IMG/VR virus record: IMGVR_UViG_3300030521_000003
Location: 1 to 49,200 of that record
Length of the DNA stretch: 49,200 bases
Reading direction: 5' to 3' (one strand)
Source of the DNA: a virus
Part shown: positions 734 to 49,200 of the stretch, in pieces
How positions within the stretch are numbered: the first letter of the stretch is position 1
Layout: every line of letters starts with the position of its first letter
Notes under the pieces: generated by a model
The model's input: the letters and a program-made list of their open reading frames with translations, nothing else
What the model was told of the DNA's origin: nothing
Database searches by the model: none
Translations under genes and position numbers: made by a program

Positions 734-955
734 TTAATTGAATTCGTTAGATAGTAGTGGTTTTTTCGAAAGGTACTCATATAGACGCTGCATCTTGTCG
801 GCGCCGGGGTCTTTGTACTGCCCCGCAATTAGCAAGTTTAGCCAAGATTTGCTAACCTTACAGTCTGCCGCGATAGTGTCGAGGTCTAAGGTAACTGGCC
901 TGTTGCGCAGTAGTTCGACAGTGTGGGCAGTCAGGCTGATAGGTGGGGTTTGCAT
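734..955 (-). CDS. Small helix-turn-helix DNA-binding protein
   Basis: A 73-aa protein. The ATG at 955 was chosen because a GGAG ribosome site lies 8 bases upstream; the frame stays open further upstream but without a comparable site. Residues about 22-45 (DLDTIAADCKVSKSWLNLLI) match the spacing of a Cro/CI-type helix-turn-helix, and the rest is a short helical tail. It lies directly upstream of the primase-polymerase, facing away from the rightward replication promoter at 1024-1052, which suits a repressor or activator of that divergent region. An exact copy of the genome-wide 10-mer lies inside the gene (920-929). Its target sequence is unknown. Confidence 0.72.
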   Translation of the reverse strand: MQTPPISLTAHTVELLRNRPVTLDLDTIAADCKVSKSWLNLLIAGQYKDPGADKMQRLYEYLSKKPLLSNEFN

Positions 956-2630: not shown

Positions 2631-3365
2631 ATGGCTCAGCTTCTTTCCGGTCCGTTCAACGCCCTGCAATATGATCCTGAATTGGGCGCCCCACAGTTTC
2701 CGCTCGGTATGAAACAACCGATGCGTATCGTTTCCGATGAAGTCGTTGCCGCGAAATCTAACGGTAACAACGGCTACATTGCCTTCACCTGCGAAATTCT
2801 GGACGGCCCGAACAAAGGCGCCCAAGGCGTTTACCGACTGAACGTCTATCACAGCAGCGAAAAAACCGTAGAAATTTCGTTGCGTCAATTGTCGGCTTTG
2901 TCCATCGCTTGCGGCAAACCTCATTGGGCCGATACCCGTGAACTGTGGAACCTGCCCTTCTTGGCCGACGTTACCCCGCAAAAAGCTACCGAAGCCAACG
3001 AAGGCAAAGGCTATACCGAAATCAGCCAAGTCTACGACGTTAACGGCAACAAGCCGAAACGCGGCGGCGCGACTGGTCAAGACCAATCGCAACAGCAGAC
3101 CAACAATCAACAGCAACAAACCAACAGCAGCGGCCAGAACTGGAATCAGAACGGCAACCAAAGCCAGAACAACGGCGGCGGTAATCAGCAACAAGACAAC
3201 AGCCAGCAACAAAACCAAAACCAGCAGCAAGGCAACAACGGCGGCAACGGTCAGCAGTGGAACCAGAACCAGCAACAGGACAACACCAACCAACAACAGC
3301 AGACCAACAACCAAGCGCCGCAAAATAACAGCCAAACCCCGCCTTGGATGCAGAAACAAGGCTAA
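2631..3365 (+). CDS. DUF669-type single-stranded DNA-binding protein with Q/N-rich tail
   Basis: A 244-aa protein. Residues 1-140 resemble the DUF669 family of phage SSBs (an FPLGMKQPMRIV strand, then GNNGYIAFTCEILDGPNKG and a LRQLSAL segment), found beside Sak4-type ATPases. From about residue 150 to 235 the chain is almost only Gln and Asn with scattered Gly, Ser, Thr and Trp, then a hydrophobic tip TPPWMQKQG. This is a long disordered, prion-like linker similar in layout to the intrinsically disordered linker and tip of bacterial SSB. An AGGAG site precedes the ATG. A terminator follows immediately, so this gene is probably made in excess of downstream genes. Confidence 0.82.
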   Translation: MAQLLSGPFNALQYDPELGAPQFPLGMKQPMRIVSDEVVAAKSNGNNGYIAFTCEILDGPNKGAQGVYRLNVYHSSEKTVEISLRQLSALSIACGKPHWADTRELWNLPFLADVTPQKATEANEGKGYTEISQVYDVNGNKPKRGGATGQDQSQQQTNNQQQQTNSSGQNWNQNGNQSQNNGGGNQQQDNSQQQNQNQQQGNNGGNGQQWNQNQQQDNTNQQQQTNNQAPQNNSQTPPWMQKQG

Positions 3366-12807: not shown

Positions 12808-15800
12808 CTGAGTAACCCCAATTCTACGACTACGACACCCGTGTCAGTATCTGTCAAGAATAACCCTGTACTGTTTAGCTGTAAACGATAACCTGTTCCG
12901 ACCCCGTTTAATTGTAGGTTTCCGTCCTTCGCCAATCGCCAACCCGATGTATTAGAAACGTAGTTGTCTGACTGAAGATCGCCAACTTTCAGATAATCAA
13001 TCGACCCGTTTTTAATAAACGCGTTTGCGAGATATGTGTTCATGCCTTCGACCGCCCAAGGGCTAAACACGGTCCCCGCGTCGTTAACATTAATAAGGGC
13101 CATGCGATCCGCACGGAAAAGAATCTGTGAAGTGATTACACCTTCGTTATTTTCAACACCGACACCGATACCCGCCATATACGGAACACCGTTAACTGTC
13201 AACTGTGTTTTAATCGTATACATCGCCGCAAGTTCTGACTTAAGGGCTTCAACCTCTACAGAAGCTCCGCCGCCGCTTTCTATTTGTTCTAGAAGTTCGG
13301 TGGCGAGTTGGGTATCTTCAATTTTGCCAACAAGCGCATCTAGCAATAGTTGCCCGTCGCTGTTAGTCACTTGGGTAATAGGAACGGCGCCGTTGTACCA
13401 ATCGCCAATCCGACCGGCTGTATCAATTACGCGAGCCCAATAATAGCGGCGCGCGCCCGGTTCTAAGTTCGTATGGTCATAAGAAGTTGCCGGGTAGGCC
13501 ATCGTCGTTAACTTAGTTGAATCGCCTAAAACGTTAGTAACACCAACGTAGATTTCTAACGTTTTAGCAATCGTATTTGTTTCGGCTGCAAAGGCCCAAT
13601 TAAGGCCGATTGCGAAAAGCTTGGTTGTTGCGGTAAACAAATCAAGACGCGGAGTAGGGAGGCTGGTAGCTTCGATAACGCCGGTCCAAGTTGTCCAAGC
13701 ACCATCCGCCCGCCCAATAGCCCTAACCCGAACTTGCCAGTTACCGGGAGACAGCCGAACAGAAAGTGTGGGCAATGAATTCGTTCCCAAGTTTGCCCAA
13801 TCGCCGTATGTGCCCGCTGTTTGAAGTCTAGCTTGATACTCGTAATAGATTGCGCCGTTGGCCGAAGAAGCAATAATGTTTTGCAAACCTACTTCGGTAG
13901 TATATACAACGTTAACCGTGTTGATAATTGGCGCAGTAGGGATACCCGGCAGGTTTGAACCGGGCGCCTCGGGGGGAATAGTTCCGCCGTTTTCAGCCGT
14001 GTAAACACTTTCCGCATAGTTAATACAGTTAATAGTAACCTGCCCTTGCGCGTTAGGCGCGGCAGACATTACTAATGCTTTCAAACCTTCTTTTTCAGTC
14101 GGCCCGCACTGATAAAAGGTGAATTCGTCGCGAGTGCCGTCACTAATATAAATTGCATTTTTCTCTGCAATTGTAGCCTGAATAATGCAGCCGTATTCGT
14201 CGTTATCTGCGTCTAGTGAGCTATCGATAACCATTGTGTATGGGCCATCTTCCGAACCGTCTTTTTTACGGAAGGCGATAACGTGAAGAAGGTTAGAGGT
14301 AAAGATAACCGGCTCTGTAGTTCTAAGCTTGCCTGTAGTTCGGTCGAAGCTTAGAACCCGTCCAGAATAACCCCATAACGGGACATCGTGACTGATACGA
14401 ATTAAACCATTATACCGGGGAATGAACCCTTCGCTTAGTGTCGAAAAGCTAATAGTTCGTCGGCGGTCACGGTTCGCGGCAACCATACTCATACCTTCAC
14501 GGTATGCTTGTTCCCGGCTTGTACATCCGAACAAAGTTACGTTATACGGATTCAACGCTGTTTCGCCCGGTATCTTGCAGGATACTGTAGCCGGCTTCCA
14601 AGTAACAGGGTCTGTGTATTCAACGATAACGTGGTCCGGGGTATCGATGTCGAAGAAACTGTACGTTGTCTTAAACGAACCCATAACCATATTCGCGGGT
14701 TGGAACATTGCGGTTGGAATGGTTTGTGGTTGATCGCGAACGAAGTCGATAACACCCGCGTAATAGATTGGAACAGTTCTCATGCATCGCAAAACTTTAG
14801 CCAGTGCATCCCAAAGCTGTACTGTACTGTCGAATACCCCGTTAAACTTGTCGCCGCGTGCGTCGGCTGTTTGCGCCAATGCGTAAGCTTTGTTCATGGC
14901 AAACCGGTCTGTTCCAAGACCGCGCCCGTAATCGGTATCACGAAGAATATCTAAAGCAATCCATACCGGATTACCGCCGCTATATTGATACGCGCCCCAT
15001 CCGTTAATCGGGTCCCATTTTTGAACACGGTCCTTGTAAAGAACACTAAACTTCCTAGCAGTTGAAGAGTTAAGCGCAGCGGTCGCCCGCATACGAACAG
15101 CAATCAAAGTACAGTTGCCGTAAGTGTAAGTAGACTGAAGATAAGATTTAAGGCCAACCCATTGCGCGCCATCCGAAGTCCGGTTATCGGCAGCGTCGTT
15201 AGAAATGCGTTGCCCCCGAACTTGATAGCGACCAAGCGGAACCGCTGTTTTAATACTGATAACTTGCGGCTGACGTGTTGCGAATGTAAACACTTGAGTA
15301 AACAATTCAAGCCAAGGGCTTAGCGGTGCGCCCGCATCGTCAACAAGCTGATATTGGAAGTTAAGCGTAACAGATGCAGCAACGGTATTACCGCCATCGT
15401 CAACGCGCCCAATACCTTGGGGGAAAGCGATATCGATTCCAATGTACGCCGCTTCTGTTCCAGAAGGTGCGGTAACAAAAGGCCCAAGTACATTAAAACC
15501 CGGATTGTTAGGAGCTAGCATATCCAGCCCGTTAACCGCATCGCTAGTTACTACGTTGTCAGGAAACAAAGTAACGACTTGATTAGGGTTTATAATTCGA
15601 TATTGAGCATCTGTGAACTGATTAAGATTTGTTTCATCGACGTAGATAGAAACTATCTCGGTAGCCCCTAGCGAAACACAAAATAGTTGGTAAAGATACT
15701 GTTCGTTGCCTGAATACTCGGTGTACGGCTGCGATGCTAAGTCGGGAACCATCCGCGCACTACCGTAACACTTCGGCATAGCCTCAAGCATTCGGGCGGT

Positions 15801-16277
15801 GTTACTTTGGGCGCTAAGGCTATACGTTGGGCTTGTGCTTTCCCCCGAACTAGACGAAGAAGATGCAGTAGGTGGCGGGATAGCCCCCGTCATCAAGCTG
15901 AGAACTGCGAAGGCGCCAATGCCGACAGCGGCAGTCGCTACCAAACTAAGACCGAAAGTAAAATAAGCCGCCACCGCGATTAGAATAGCGCCAATAATAC
16001 TCTTGATGTTTGAGCCCCCGCCCCCGCCTTTAGGCAAGTATGCGATTTGAATAACATCATCTTCGGCTAAAACCAAGTTCCAATCCTTGGAAAGCAACGC
16101 AACGCCATTATGCATAACAACGTAGCAACCAAGACGGTAAAAGCCATCTTCTGAAAAAGATACAAGCGAAGCATTTTCCAAAACTTGAAAAACAGTTAAC
16201 CCGTGGTCGATTTCCTTTTCGATTACGTTTAAGTTTGGGCGATACGGGTTAGTGTGAATTAACAAGCTAGTGGACAT
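12804..16277 (-). CDS. Central tail tip / host specificity protein (lambda J, TipJ-like)
   Basis: A 1157-aa protein. Residues 1-85 form a ubiquitin-like head (LTVFQVLENA...AEDDVIQIAYLPKGGGGG) followed by a strongly hydrophobic stretch at about 93-130, as in proteins that fuse a lambda gpI-like domain to gpJ. The middle contains the typical tip-attachment segments (ARMLEAMPKCYGSARMVPDL, GYSGRVLSF), then fibronectin-type strands around residues 770-960 and a DUF1983-like C-terminus with ITSQILFRADRMALIN. It forms the tail tip hub and contributes to receptor binding and DNA injection. It follows the NlpC/P60-type gene, as in lambda. Confidence 0.9.
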   Translation of the reverse strand: MSTSLLIHTNPYRPNLNVIEKEIDHGLTVFQVLENASLVSFSEDGFYRLGCYVVMHNGVALLSKDWNLVLAEDDVIQIAYLPKGGGGGSNIKSIIGAILIAVAAYFTFGLSLVATAAVGIGAFAVLSLMTGAIPPPTASSSSSSGESTSPTYSLSAQSNTARMLEAMPKCYGSARMVPDLASQPYTEYSGNEQYLYQLFCVSLGATEIVSIYVDETNLNQFTDAQYRIINPNQVVTLFPDNVVTSDAVNGLDMLAPNNPGFNVLGPFVTAPSGTEAAYIGIDIAFPQGIGRVDDGGNTVAASVTLNFQYQLVDDAGAPLSPWLELFTQVFTFATRQPQVISIKTAVPLGRYQVRGQRISNDAADNRTSDGAQWVGLKSYLQSTYTYGNCTLIAVRMRATAALNSSTARKFSVLYKDRVQKWDPINGWGAYQYSGGNPVWIALDILRDTDYGRGLGTDRFAMNKAYALAQTADARGDKFNGVFDSTVQLWDALAKVLRCMRTVPIYYAGVIDFVRDQPQTIPTAMFQPANMVMGSFKTTYSFFDIDTPDHVIVEYTDPVTWKPATVSCKIPGETALNPYNVTLFGCTSREQAYREGMSMVAANRDRRRTISFSTLSEGFIPRYNGLIRISHDVPLWGYSGRVLSFDRTTGKLRTTEPVIFTSNLLHVIAFRKKDGSEDGPYTMVIDSSLDADNDEYGCIIQATIAEKNAIYISDGTRDEFTFYQCGPTEKEGLKALVMSAAPNAQGQVTINCINYAESVYTAENGGTIPPEAPGSNLPGIPTAPIINTVNVVYTTEVGLQNIIASSANGAIYYEYQARLQTAGTYGDWANLGTNSLPTLSVRLSPGNWQVRVRAIGRADGAWTTWTGVIEATSLPTPRLDLFTATTKLFAIGLNWAFAAETNTIAKTLEIYVGVTNVLGDSTKLTTMAYPATSYDHTNLEPGARRYYWARVIDTAGRIGDWYNGAVPITQVTNSDGQLLLDALVGKIEDTQLATELLEQIESGGGASVEVEALKSELAAMYTIKTQLTVNGVPYMAGIGVGVENNEGVITSQILFRADRMALINVNDAGTVFSPWAVEGMNTYLANAFIKNGSIDYLKVGDLQSDNYVSNTSGWRLAKDGNLQLNGVGTGYRLQLNSTGLFLTDTDTGVVVVELGLLS

Positions 16278-40934: not shown

Positions 40935-41091
40935 TGTTTAAACCTTCGAATTTTGTATATGGAATATCGGCAATTCGAATCGGATTATCTGAAACATGCC
41001 GATTAGCAAGGTGGTAGGCGGCTAACTCGCGTTCTCGCCTTGCTTCTTCATTAATTCGATTCTTTCGACGTTGCATTTTATCGGGATTCAT
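40924..41091 (-). CDS. Tiny basic protein
   Basis: A 55-aa basic protein: an Arg/Asn-rich helix (MQRRKNRINEEARRERELAA) and a disordered tail (PIRIADIPYTKFEG). ATGA overlap before it; its end overlaps the next gene by 11 bases. It may bind nucleic acid. Confidence 0.64.
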   Translation of the reverse strand: MNPDKMQRRKNRINEEARRERELAAYHLANRHVSDNPIRIADIPYTKFEGLNNEH

Positions 41092-41384
41092 TCTTGCGCC
41101 TTCCAGCTAGAAACGTCCGGTTGATCTTCGATAACGATGCGGGCGATTTCGTACCAATCACCCTCATGTTTAACGACAACGTATTTGCGACCGTACGCCT
41201 TAGCCTTCTTACTGACTAGCGAACGAAGGTGGTTGCCGGATTTGTCTTTAGGCAATTTGAAAGGAAACGACAGACCGGCGGGGCATTGCTCGAAACCATC
41301 TTTAATTAATGCCCACAGTGAGCCGCTGCCCTCGGTAGCTACTTTCTTAACTGCGTTCGAATGTTGGATGTATTCGGGAAGCAT
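41088..41384 (-). CDS. First gene of the leftward island, hypothetical
   Basis: A 98-aa protein with an alpha/beta C-terminal part (HLRSLVSKKAKAYGRKYVVV... DWYEIARIVIEDQ). First product of the leftward promoter at 41416-41444, so probably made very early. No recognised domain. Confidence 0.74.
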   Translation of the reverse strand: MLPEYIQHSNAVKKVATEGSGSLWALIKDGFEQCPAGLSFPFKLPKDKSGNHLRSLVSKKAKAYGRKYVVVKHEGDWYEIARIVIEDQPDVSSWKAQE

Positions 41385-41400
41385 GATGATATTTCCGTAT

Positions 41401-41780
41401 TAATTAAGTCAACATACCTTACACCTTATACCCTTGCCTGTCAACACCCCTGTTGCAATCTTGCCATAAGAATCGAAATGTATAGAAAAATGCTCTCCTA
41501 AACAGGCTGTAGCCCTTGGTTTATCTATACTATTAATATATATATATATTAAATATATAAAGAGAAGGAGAATTGAATTACGTTATTAGGGTGTTCGTGC
41601 TCGAAACCCTTACACCCTATGCACCCTTTTGGATATAGGTTACATATTTAATATATGCGAAGCTGAGACGCATACAGGCTAAGGGGTGTACCCGGTTAGC
41701 AAGGCCATTTGTTTATACATTTCGATTCTTACGGGTGTGAAGAATCATCAAAAATAGGGGTGTACAAGGTGTGAGGTGTG
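41401..41780. other. Candidate replication origin (iteron-like repeats, AT-rich core)
   Basis: This 440-bp non-coding gap separates divergent gene islands. It holds at least seven related G-rich elements of the form A(T)AGGGGTGTA: minus strand at 41417-41430 and 41442-41455, plus strand at 41584-41596, minus at 41607-41620, plus at 41679-41692, 41732-41742 and 41754-41769. Between them lies a nearly pure A/T stretch (41528-41560, with a run of alternating TA) and another at 41644-41656. Iterons flanking an AT-rich unwinding element are the classic origin design. Functional proof is lacking. Confidence 0.58.
41416..41444 (-). promoter_or_regulatory. Leftward early promoter
   Basis: On the minus strand a perfect TTGACA (41439-41444), 17-base spacer and TAAGGT -10 (41416-41421) precede the first leftward gene. 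The spacer contains one of the GGTGTA repeats, so origin or regulator binding could affect it. Confidence 0.72.
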
Positions 41781-41789
41781 CGGTAAGAT
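41761..41789 (+). promoter_or_regulatory. Rightward early promoter
   Basis: TGTACA (41761-41766), 17-base spacer, TAAGAT (41784-41789). The leader ends GGAAACGAAAATG, like the leaders of the promoters at 43621 and 45803. The last origin-type repeat overlaps the -35. Confidence 0.68.
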
Positions 41790-41824
41790 AGGCACATCAA
41801 CCAAGCGAACAGAAGGAAACGAAA

Positions 41825-42037
41825 ATGAACACTGAAATTGCAAACATCCTAATCAAGCTGGTCAAAGATTGCGAAACAGCACCGAAGAATGCAAAAGGCG
41901 CGATCAATGGTAAGCGCTTAAATGCAATGACTGACAAGGCGATCGATGCGATTGTGACGGCTGGTGACGACAAGCACAGCGCTCGCAGCATGGTCACAGA
42001 GGCAACCGAAAAATTCATGGCCCGCTCTTGCAAATAA
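41825..42037 (+). CDS. First gene of the rightward island, hypothetical
   Basis: A 70-aa basic helical protein (ANILIKLVKDCETAPKNAKG) starting 8 bases after AAGGAAA-type ribosome sequence. First product of its promoter, so probably an early protein. No recognised domain. Confidence 0.74.
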   Translation: MNTEIANILIKLVKDCETAPKNAKGAINGKRLNAMTDKAIDAIVTAGDDKHSARSMVTEATEKFMARSCK

Positions 42038-44010: not shown

Positions 44011-44241
44011 ATGCAGAAAACAAAGTTCAACAAACGCGCCGGTAAGCCAACGCCAGTTGTTCGCATGGTTCAAAGTAAACGCGGCCTTCACTATTTCTTG
44101 GCATATAACACGCGTCCCGGTTATGAACATGAATTGCTAGTTAAATTCCCCGCTGTTTTGTTTCAAAACCCACCGTTTCAATTACTAGACGGTGTTAGCT
44201 GGGGAAAAATGCGCGACTGGCTTAAGTCGAAGGCGTTTTAA
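44011..44241 (+). CDS. Small basic hypothetical protein
   Basis: A 76-aa protein; ATG at 44011 lies 8 bases after AGGAG, better than the GTG at 44002. Basic start (KTKFNKRAGKPTPVV), aromatic middle (LHYFLAYNTRPGYEHELL). Its stop overlaps the next gene (TAATG). Confidence 0.72.
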   Translation: MQKTKFNKRAGKPTPVVRMVQSKRGLHYFLAYNTRPGYEHELLVKFPAVLFQNPPFQLLDGVSWGKMRDWLKSKAF

Positions 44242-44792
44242 TGCAAGTCGAAGACGGCTTAAACCCGCGTTGTTTCGCTCGCGTAAAGCTAACTCCGCCT
44301 GCGCCATTGCCACACGTTTCGCGCAGAGCATTGAAGCGAGTTAACCATTGGATTAAGCCGCCGACCGAATGCGACTGTTGCGGAACTTCTGGTGTTCGTT
44401 TGGTCGGTAACGAAGAGGTTTACGGCAAGCCTTACGGTCTTTGGCCTTACTGTTATGTGTGCCCACACTGTCGCGCCTATGTTGGCCTGCATCCTGAAAC
44501 AGACTTACCTCTAGGCTTTATGGCCGACAGCTTTATACGTGACGCTAGAAAGGCCGCTAAGGCGCCGTTTCAGTGCATCTGTAGAGTGAAGTATGAAAGC
44601 ATACAAGACTGTTACGATGTTAAGCGCGAACGGATGGTTAAGCGCAAGATCATTAACAGAAGCGCCGCTTACGAGTGGCTAAGCAAAGCAACTGGTATCG
44701 AGCCTAAGCTTTGTCACTTCGCAATGATGGACGAAGATACCGCAATGAGAGTGTTCGAAGTTTGTTTCAACTACTTGTTTGAGGAATGCTGA
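44241..44792 (+). CDS. DUF3268-like zinc-finger protein
   Basis: A 183-aa protein with the distinctive pattern CDCCG...YGKPYGLWPYCYVCPHCRAYVGLHPETDLPLGFMAD written here in parts: Cys pairs in CDCC and CPHC, then AYVGLH and PLGFMAD. This closely follows the DUF3268 family of small phage zinc proteins. A helical region with more Cys (CICRVKYESIQDCYD) follows. Exact molecular role unknown. Contains an exact 10-mer repeat at 44460-44469, coding for Cys-Pro-His-Cys. Confidence 0.8.
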   Translation: MQVEDGLNPRCFARVKLTPPAPLPHVSRRALKRVNHWIKPPTECDCCGTSGVRLVGNEEVYGKPYGLWPYCYVCPHCRAYVGLHPETDLPLGFMADSFIRDARKAAKAPFQCICRVKYESIQDCYDVKRERMVKRKIINRSAAYEWLSKATGIEPKLCHFAMMDEDTAMRVFEVCFNYLFEEC

Positions 44793-46649: not shown

Positions 46650-46985
46650 ATGAAACGTAAGATTATTCAATTGGAAGAAACGGCGAAGTGTACTTTAGCG
46701 CTTTGCGATGATGGAACAGTATACAAACTTACAAGTTGCGACCGTAGGCCGCTAGCTTACGAATATACTTGGGAAGAGTTGCCGCCTTTGCCTGAAAAGC
46801 AAATAGAACGTAACTTTATTGGGCGTGGCGAAATATCAAAACCCGACCCCGACCTTTCTTATACTAAAGGAATTGAGGCGGGACTAAATAATTTAGGTGG
46901 ATCAAACCCTTATCCTGTTGGTTCTTTCGAAGCTAATTGCTGGGTAGATGGTTACACAGAGGGTATTAAAAGAAAGCAACGTTAA
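46650..46985 (+). CDS. Hypothetical protein with RMF/CrpP-like C-terminus
   Basis: A 111-aa protein. The N-terminal 60 residues contain a small beta-like part (CTLALCDDGTVYKLTSCD). The last 45 residues follow a Gly-x-x-A-G ... N-P-Y-P ... W-x-x-G-Y-x-x-G pattern (KGIEAGLNNLGGSNPYPVG, then CWVDGYTEGIKRKQR) like ribosome modulation factor and small CrpP-type proteins. A ribosome-directed role is possible but unproven. A terminator follows. Confidence 0.7.
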   Translation: MKRKIIQLEETAKCTLALCDDGTVYKLTSCDRRPLAYEYTWEELPPLPEKQIERNFIGRGEISKPDPDLSYTKGIEAGLNNLGGSNPYPVGSFEANCWVDGYTEGIKRKQR

Positions 46986-47409: not shown

Positions 47410-49200
47410 TTATAGTCCAAATGCACGCGGGTTGCTTATCATAAAGGCCCGCGCAGATGTACCCATTTTCTGAAGCTCGTTACGCGGTACTTCGCGAATA
47501 TCGCCGCGATCAACAAGAGTTTGGATTGCTCGTTTGATATTATCAGCCGGACGCCCGCCGCTTCTATCACCTTTAAAGGATGCTTTCTGCGTAAGACGCT
47601 TATAAACGTAGGCGTAGGAGATAATGCGTTCGGCATGTAGAACTAGCGGAACTTGGTACTTTTCAACATCTGAATGCGCGCAAACAAGATACTCGCGGAA
47701 GCAATCCGTAATGTCTACCATCTGCCGCTGTTCCGAGCCTTCGAAACCAATTTCGCCGGAATCGAAGCAAGCTAGAATTGCTTTGGTGTCGTCGTGAACC
47801 ATCGAGATAGCCCAATTGGCAATCTCGTAATTAATCGTTGGTTCGTAAGGGTGACAGCCTACCGCAACAGTCGCCGCTAACTTTAACGCTTTCATATGGG
47901 AACGGTTCCACAGTTGAGCGCGCACGCCGCCTGTGCTGGTTCGCAGAGCTTCGTTAATTTCTTCGTCACAAAAATCATTCCAGTGTTCGAACAGAGCTAA
48001 ACCGTCGTCAGTATAGCCAACGTTAATAACTTGATCCTGTTCGTTCAATGCAAGCGCGTTAGTACAAATACTAGCCATTCCTTGTACAAGCTCGTTAGAC
48101 GGTCTAGCGAATGGCGCTTTGGCATTCTTTTTAGGTCGAAAGCCTTTATATTCAATGATAGAGAATCGAGGAACCAAGCCCGAACTAATCATTGATTCAT
48201 CAAGTGCTTTGTAAAATTCCTCGGGCGTTGATTCGCCCAATAATGAGAAAGCAGGCGCCTTAGTGGCGTCGGTGGAATCGTCCTTTTGACTGTTAATCGT
48301 TGCCTTAAATACGTCGCCATGTCCCGAAATGTTATAAAGCTCTAGTAACATTTTCATAAGGCCGCGACGGTTTGGGTCGGCGTTTGGCGAACAGATTTCC
48401 TGAAGCCACAAACCAATCTCCCCCGGCATAGCGACGAACGATTTGGAATGACGGTGAAAGTGTTTTGACAAAGCTTGCCGTGAAGATATTTCGCCCGGCC
48501 CTATGAACAAATGCGAGTTAGGTGCAAGGTTAGCAACTGCTGCCATTATCTTGTCAATGCCGCCGCGCATTGCTTCTTTACCCGTTCCGGTAGGAGCGAG
48601 TAACAAAGTATATTGGTTAAGACCAGTTCCGCTTATGTTGTAAGCGCGGCCAGCAACACCAGAAAGAAGGCCGACAGCGCCAGCCAATGCAATCTCAAAC
48701 ACTGGACGCGTGGCAGCCTCATAAATGAACTGCGCAAGCATACCGACAATACCGGGCGGAACTGTGTAAGTTCGTTGACCTTTGCGGCGCTCTACAGACT
48801 TCGGCGCTTCTTTCAAAACTTTATCTAAAACTTCCGGCGCCGTTTCATTGTGAACATTCAAACGCGCTTGTTGAATTTGAGCATCAACGGCTTTCTTCGC
48901 CAGAATAGCCGACTCAATTTGAAGCTTAAGACCTTCAATATCAATTGGCGGTAACTCATGGTCAAAGCTACGAAGAATCATTGTTTCAACATAATCATTC
49001 CGCCAAGCTTTGTCGCGTTGACCCAATCCCGAGCCGCGAAAGATACGGGTAATCTGCGCCCGGTTCTTCGTATAGAAGGCGATGATGTCGATTAGGGCAA
49101 AGTCAGCGTCTGACTGAGAATTGTAATAGACTTGCCAGTTACCCATGTAAAGATCGGCAAACTTAGCGCCGTTAGAAGCGTTGTATGCCATTGAGCAAAC
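47410..49200 (-). CDS. Primase-polymerase/ATPase, middle and C-terminal part (from 724)
   Basis: Continuation of the gene starting at 724; the frame is open through 49200. In whole-protein numbering, residues about 235-275 (FYTKNRAQITRIFRGSGLGQ, then DYVETMIL) form the helical domain that follows the polymerase domain in NrS-1-type enzymes. Residues from about 340 to 620 are a DUF3987-like ATPase: Walker A-like APTGTGKEA (about 401-409), then GPGEISSRQALSKHF, MPGEIGLWLQEIC, and SLLGESTPEEFY. The last 150 residues include a winged-helix-like end (QTLVDRGDIREVPRNELQKM). It combines priming with a helicase or loader-type motor in one chain. Start, stop and the join are clear; enzyme activities are inferred. 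Confidence 0.87.
   Translation of the reverse strand, partial: VCSMAYNASNGAKFADLYMGNWQVYYNSQSDADFALIDIIAFYTKNRAQITRIFRGSGLGQRDKAWRNDYVETMILRSFDHELPPIDIEGLKLQIESAILAKKAVDAQIQQARLNVHNETAPEVLDKVLKEAPKSVERRKGQRTYTVPPGIVGMLAQFIYEAATRPVFEIALAGAVGLLSGVAGRAYNISGTGLNQYTLLLAPTGTGKEAMRGGIDKIMAAVANLAPNSHLFIGPGEISSRQALSKHFHRHSKSFVAMPGEIGLWLQEICSPNADPNRRGLMKMLLELYNISGHGDVFKATINSQKDDSTDATKAPAFSLLGESTPEEFYKALDESMISSGLVPRFSIIEYKGFRPKKNAKAPFARPSNELVQGMASICTNALALNEQDQVINVGYTDDGLALFEHWNDFCDEEINEALRTSTGGVRAQLWNRSHMKALKLAATVAVGCHPYEPTINYEIANWAISMVHDDTKAILACFDSGEIGFEGSEQRQMVDITDCFREYLVCAHSDVEKYQVPLVLHAERIISYAYVYKRLTQKASFKGDRSGGRPADNIKRAIQTLVDRGDIREVPRNELQKMGTSARAFMISNPRAFGL
49074..49200. repeat. Terminal overlap, right copy
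   Basis: Matches bases 1-127 except for G at 49079 instead of T at 6. Removing one copy gives a circle of about 49,073 bp. Confidence 0.93.

Follow-up and report, generated by a model that had tools for sequence, protein, structure and literature searches.

The noncoding gap at positions 41385-41824 of the analysed stretch of viral DNA (hereafter the window, 49,200 bases that make up a single virus record) is probably the replication origin of the phage and of the iteron type, as judged from its sequence and from its counterparts in related genomes. The gap spans 440 bp between one ORF on the minus strand (41088-41384) and one on the plus strand (41825-42037). Its repeats occur above chance, they surround an A/T core, and the same plan is shared with the closest relative G001 and mostly with 17 other genomes, which supports the iteron-origin layout proposed in an earlier note on this DNA.

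The window represents an essentially complete phage genome, its ends (1-127 and 49074-49200) overlapping by 127 bp at 99% identity to give a circular map of ~49.07 kb in which the overlap splits the primase gene in two. It encodes head, tail and terminase genes and a replication set consisting of a PrimPol-helicase, a Sak4-like protein, an SSB, a Cas4-type exonuclease, a helicase, a clamp and a PolB; no RNA families or tRNAs were found within it. The SSB (2631-3365, plus strand) carries a long Q/N-rich C-terminal tail, and the repetitive DNA encoding it outscores every other local 7-mer repeat of the genome. The ORF at 46650-46985 (plus strand) gives a sub-threshold Pfam match to RMF (ribosome modulation factor; E 8.7e-4, residues 71-106). 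The zinc-finger DUF3268 protein (phrog_1934; 44241-44792, plus strand) is present in 9 of 10 relatives, and in the more distant ones its gene sits on the opposite side of the primase, so that the window and G001 seem to have a rearranged early block (41.8-47 kb). The nearest named phages, at ~50% identity in the primase, are Pseudomonas phage PSV3, the Septimatrevirus phages and Burkholderia phage KL1 (Kilunavirus). Close DNA relatives were absent from the phage collection, tblastn returned no relatives of the small proteins flanking the gap, scans of viral contigs with the primase and early genes gave no usable relatives, and a capsid scan reached remote relatives only. The PolB scan provided the sole close relative, the environmental genome IMGVR_UViG_3300028586_000030 (G001; 77% identity in PolB and 69% in the primase), and two-sequence alignment added none. 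The ends of G001 likewise overlap, by 200 bp.

The gap is densely populated by a degenerate G-rich word. Allowing at most one mismatch on either strand, AGGGTGTA is found 8 times in the gap versus 17 times in the other 48.8 kb, where the matches are scattered and form no second cluster. Eight copies make up the best 8-mer family of the gap, a number that 0 of 500 dinucleotide shuffles attain (mean 4.2, maximum 7). By word match, the left flank holds two overlapping iterons on the minus strand (AAGGTGTA and AGGGTATA, 41420-41434, with copies at 41420 and 41427), followed by a weak iteron-like word (AGGCTGTA, 41504-41511, plus). The inner iterons are AGGGTGTT (41588-41595, plus), an exact AGGGTGTA (41611-41618, minus) and AGGGTGCA (41620-41627, minus), while the right flank contains GGGGTGTA (41683-41690, plus), which is also a direct repeat, and the cluster GGGGTGTACAAGGTGTGAGGTGTG (41757-41780, plus), with one copy at 41757 and the looser members AGGTGTG at 41767 and 41774. 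Further looser members are GGGGTGTTG (41444, minus) and the right-flank iteron GGGTGTG (41733-41739, plus), bringing the G-rich elements to more than 10, so that the original count of at least seven related elements on both strands is borne out. Since the left-flank repeats lie on the minus strand and the right-flank repeats on the plus strand, with the inner ones mixed, the repeats point outward. Clustering of 7-mers alone does not rank this gap first in the window because the copies are degenerate, and a mismatch-tolerant test is required. The gene to the right of the gap matches phrog_4310, and the gene to the left encodes a 98-aa protein with ~40% identity to its neighbour in G001.

Between these repeats lies a 31-nt A/T-only core (41531-41561), a candidate DNA unwinding element and the sole A/T-only run of at least 16 nt in the window genome. 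It falls inside the least stable 80-mer of that genome (41515-41594, z 4.9). A second, shorter A/T tract (41644-41656), also expected from the initial reading of the sequence together with the A/T-only core, is likewise present and belongs to an inverted copy of the core (41640-41656 versus 41544-41560, 94% complementary). The gap centre is additionally flanked by the arms of an inverted repeat that the earlier note did not contain, TAAGAATCGAAATGTATA (left arm 41467-41484, plus; right arm 41714-41731, minus), which is perfect over 18 bp, matches at ~24/26 positions when extended, and scores 20 against a null maximum of 11.

The syntenic gap of G001 occupies the same position, beside the homologue of the left neighbour gene of the window, and repeats the arrangement in other letters. 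It has a 49-nt A/T-only core, a 19-bp perfect inverted repeat whose arms stand at -83/+168 from the core centre (-84/+155 in the window), and 11 copies of GGTACAAA-type words where 0.5 are expected, the G001 word being GGTACAAG. Both the words and the arms are unlike those of the window. A plan that is kept while its letters are replaced would fit what is expected of protein sites changing with their reader, rather than idle sequence. Within a single ORF, the left-neighbour homologue in G001 (15344-16003) matches the 98-aa window protein twice in succession, a tandem duplication.

The comparison was extended to 19 genomes, the window and G001 with 17 further phages of Septimatrevirus, Kilunavirus, Lokivirus, Titanvirus and other groups (KL1, Kopi, DoCa1, Halfdan, RcTitan, Kharn, Loki, KP1, VCLv11, Pfeifenkraut, LPPA15 and six IMG/VR records), which do not amount to 19 independent cases, as G010 and DoCa1 are near-duplicates at this locus and KL1 and VCLv11 in the primase; the fragment G005, with no clear core near its primase, was left out. 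Each of the 19 has its least stable 80-mer at the A/T core of a noncoding gap (z 4.1-5.6); the core is at 30.43 kb in Escherichia phage Halfdan, 37.57 kb in KL1 and about 15.2 kb in G001. In 15 genomes this core is found downstream of the primase-helicase gene, at 0.15-2 kb; three have it ~3.8-6 kb away (the window at 5.9 kb, G001 at 6.1 kb, and RcTitan), and in Loki it is upstream of the HTH-primase pair. By a simple word test the best repeat word beats all 60 shuffles in 9 of the 19 gaps and stays below that level in the other 10. Words above all shuffles include ATACAACC in Kharn (n=10), TATAATGG in G017 (n=9), GTATAAGG in Halfdan (n=8) and TATAACGG in Pfeifenkraut (n=8), and TATAA-like words in the gaps could in part be promoter -10 elements. 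Inverted arms reach significance in roughly a third of the genomes only, and a CTAAGTCNTTGATT/AATCAANGACTTAG-type motif brackets the core in several of the 17 further genomes. With regard to conservation of the repeats in relatives, which had been named as a check, the exact word is not kept, whereas the plan (an unstable A/T core, short repeats on both strands, inverted arms, and a noncoding gap near replication genes) is kept in G001 and mostly in the 17 others. The lineage-specific spelling fits a DNA-copying protein that changes in concert with the sites it lands on. The left neighbour of the window is also a remote HMM match to the gene family beside the core in KL1-like phages (E 0.0046; 0.0005 for the G001 homologue), tying the gaps of the window and of these phages together. 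The match also suggests that the window origin is turned round relative to the primase.

GC skew is compatible with an origin. In 11 of the 19 genomes the detrended cumulative curve reaches its minimum no more than 1 kb from the core, and in 18 the skew increases on crossing it, also where the genes to its left and right run in one direction. When the comparison is confined to third codon positions of co-directional genes, 6 of 8 genomes shift as expected and the remaining 2 do the opposite. The skew analysis that the earlier note had called for does find a switch at the window gap, yet this switch coincides with divergent transcription there, and skew does not separate replication from transcription.

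The most plausible initiator candidate is the primase-helicase itself. The 593 C-terminal residues of this PrimPol-helicase are encoded at 47410-49191 (minus strand), the gene running over the contig end to ~724 (minus). Its last 105 residues are predicted to form a winged helix (47413-47727, minus; AlphaFold2 pLDDT 91.5), a candidate iteron-binding domain whose PDB fold matches include, among many others, the winged helices of MCM and ORC. The part preceding it resembles MCM-type AAA+ lids in the fold search. As the full-length model is poor (pLDDT 51.5), the C-terminal part alone was relied on. A PDB entry described as a DNA primase, 7ola (the SaPI5 primase-helicase), is hit by the primase profile with E 1.4e-5, over positions 5-52 only and without covering the helicase; no SaPI PriRep chain was among the fold-search matches listed. 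Residues before and within the recognition helix vary with the iteron word, but the rest of the protein varies too, so that this trend is confounded with ancestry, and the helices of G000 and G001 are similar despite different words. In five phages the gene beside the core encodes the only second significant winged-helix copy of the genome (E 1e-13 to 1e-17), as a stand-alone protein of ~210-236 aa (G018:14325-14990, L086; G002:19863-20543; G003:3150-3782; RcTitan, L102, 38943-39650; VCLv11, L106, 6991-7692). The SaPI Rep helicases offer a precedent, their C-terminal domain recognising iterons in an origin directly downstream of their own gene, and the isolated C-terminal domain of SCC Cch2 binds its putative origin (PMC7581432).

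The same features might instead belong to a bidirectional early promoter/operator, with the repeats serving as operators of a regulator such as a small HTH protein and the A/T tract as an UP-element or bent DNA, and nothing more. Such a role would suit a gap that separates divergent operons in the window and G001, a good TTGACA promoter just right of the core in relatives, and the conservation of an HTH gene upstream of the primase. It would also suit the palindrome CAACA-CCCC-TGTTG (41442-41455), which contains GGGGTGT on the minus strand and was correctly described from the outset as overlapping the leftward -35 region, a perfect TTGACA at 41444-41439 (minus). The two outward early promoters claimed for the gap are nevertheless weak by consensus, a sigma-70 scan performing no better than on shuffled sequence: the left candidate joins its perfect TTGACA to a poor -10 (TAAGGT) over a 17-nt spacer, and the right candidate (TGTACA-17-TAAGAT) is weak. 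Because the embedded promoters are this poor, coupling of replication to early transcription is plausible only. In most relatives, moreover, the gap lies within a co-directional gene block, which has no need of a divergent promoter; in every genome the core is where the DNA is least stable; and the HTH is uncoupled from the repeat word, Kopi having an unrelated HTH yet sharing CGTATAAC with DoCa1, and RcTitan lacking the HTH. We therefore regard a purely regulatory gap as unlikely.

If the gap is an origin, its repeats could be read by another protein, be it the HTH protein, the SF2 helicase or the product of the core-side gene; this we consider a serious possibility but the less probable one. 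The small HTH-like protein (734-955, minus strand; sub-threshold Pfam HTH match in the window copy) is encoded directly upstream of the primase and shares its operon, and the core-side gene has a conserved position. Against these readers stand the HTH gene of Kopi, which is unrelated to that of DoCa1 despite their common word, and its absence from RcTitan, as well as the fact that the winged helix is the only domain common to the primase and the core-side protein, and the SaPI Rep precedent cited above (PMC7581432). The HTH protein was accordingly rejected as first-choice iteron reader, as it does not follow the repeat word. A host-type, DnaA-dependent origin, for which the A/T-rich core might speak, is highly improbable: the gap has no DnaA box cluster and a single match at one mismatch, and the genome holds 64 where 98 are expected.

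Under the preferred reading, an iteron origin recognised by the primase-helicase, we infer that replication would start in this gap by binding of the winged helix to the repeats, melting of the core and a bidirectional start. Several copies of the primase-helicase (PrimPol, AAA+ helicase and C-terminal winged helix) would bind the AGGGTGTA repeats on both sides, the winged helix making the contact and the bound copies being oriented outward from the centre. The bound protein would then open the A/T-only core and load itself as helicase onto the exposed strands, as SaPI Rep does, after which phage-encoded PolB, clamp and SSB would extend the forks. As for the inverted arms, their probable role is to bind another protein or to set the two halves in position.

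Feature tables of the related phages examined carry no origin annotation (the VCLv11 record being without any annotation), and a literature search, thin on subscription journals, found no earlier description of this origin: the words origin and iteron are absent from the Loki paper, and where the DLP1/DLP2 paper speaks of origin, twice, replication is not meant. The iteron origin is a known type; this one is distinguished by repeats and inverted arms that stand on both sides, by a word that is rewritten between lineages, and by a second winged-helix gene. From the comparison come a precise location in cultured phages of a common group and a named candidate initiator domain, and the series AGGGTGTA, GGTACAAG, CGTATAAC, GTATAAGG and GTTGTATG supplies natural words for studying the joint change of an initiator and its sites. 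That five phages have an additional winged-helix gene next to the core suggests a built-in means of controlling replication. More tentatively, these loci may form a widespread origin family of lytic siphophages, in which the word is rewritten along with the winged helix fused to PrimPol-AAA+ and a stand-alone winged helix, encoded beside the origin in part of the phages, competes for the sites, thereby regulating initiation.

Among known systems the SaPI origin, with its iterons around an A/T-rich stretch, provides a close parallel. Here as with SaPI Rep/PriRep and SCC Cch2, an iteron origin lies near a primase-helicase gene, usually downstream, and SaPI Rep, a self-loading helicase, is an initiator with a C-terminal DNA-binding domain (PMC7581432), the counterpart here being a predicted winged helix. 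The present origin differs in belonging to a lytic phage itself rather than to a satellite, in its long inverted arms and, in some relatives, in the second winged-helix protein beside the core, and the helicase looks like another branch (MCM-like lid, NrS-1-type HBD). In addition, 5.9 kb separate the window origin from the primase, and the origin appears to face the other way round. Given this distance, the 6.1 kb in G001 and the upstream core of Loki, we describe the origin as working like the SaPI type without assigning it as a member.

Lambda ori also places iterons beside an A/T-rich unwinding element, but these are contained in the O gene, to one side of that element, and the helicase recruited is the host's DnaB. 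The present repeats, by contrast, flank the core on either side in noncoding DNA at a distance of 5.9 kb from the primase, and the helicase is phage-encoded. The alpha protein acting at P4 ori1 is a primase-helicase that also recognises short repeats; unlike P4, the window has no separate crr-like second repeat cluster. Finally, the origin used by RepA of the Vibrio cholerae satellite PLE is similarly noncoding, with repeats that are bound by a dedicated initiator and diverge between lineages. PLE1 has three semi-palindromic iterons of ~30 bp (PMC8263062), whereas the words described here are ~8 bp long and more numerous.
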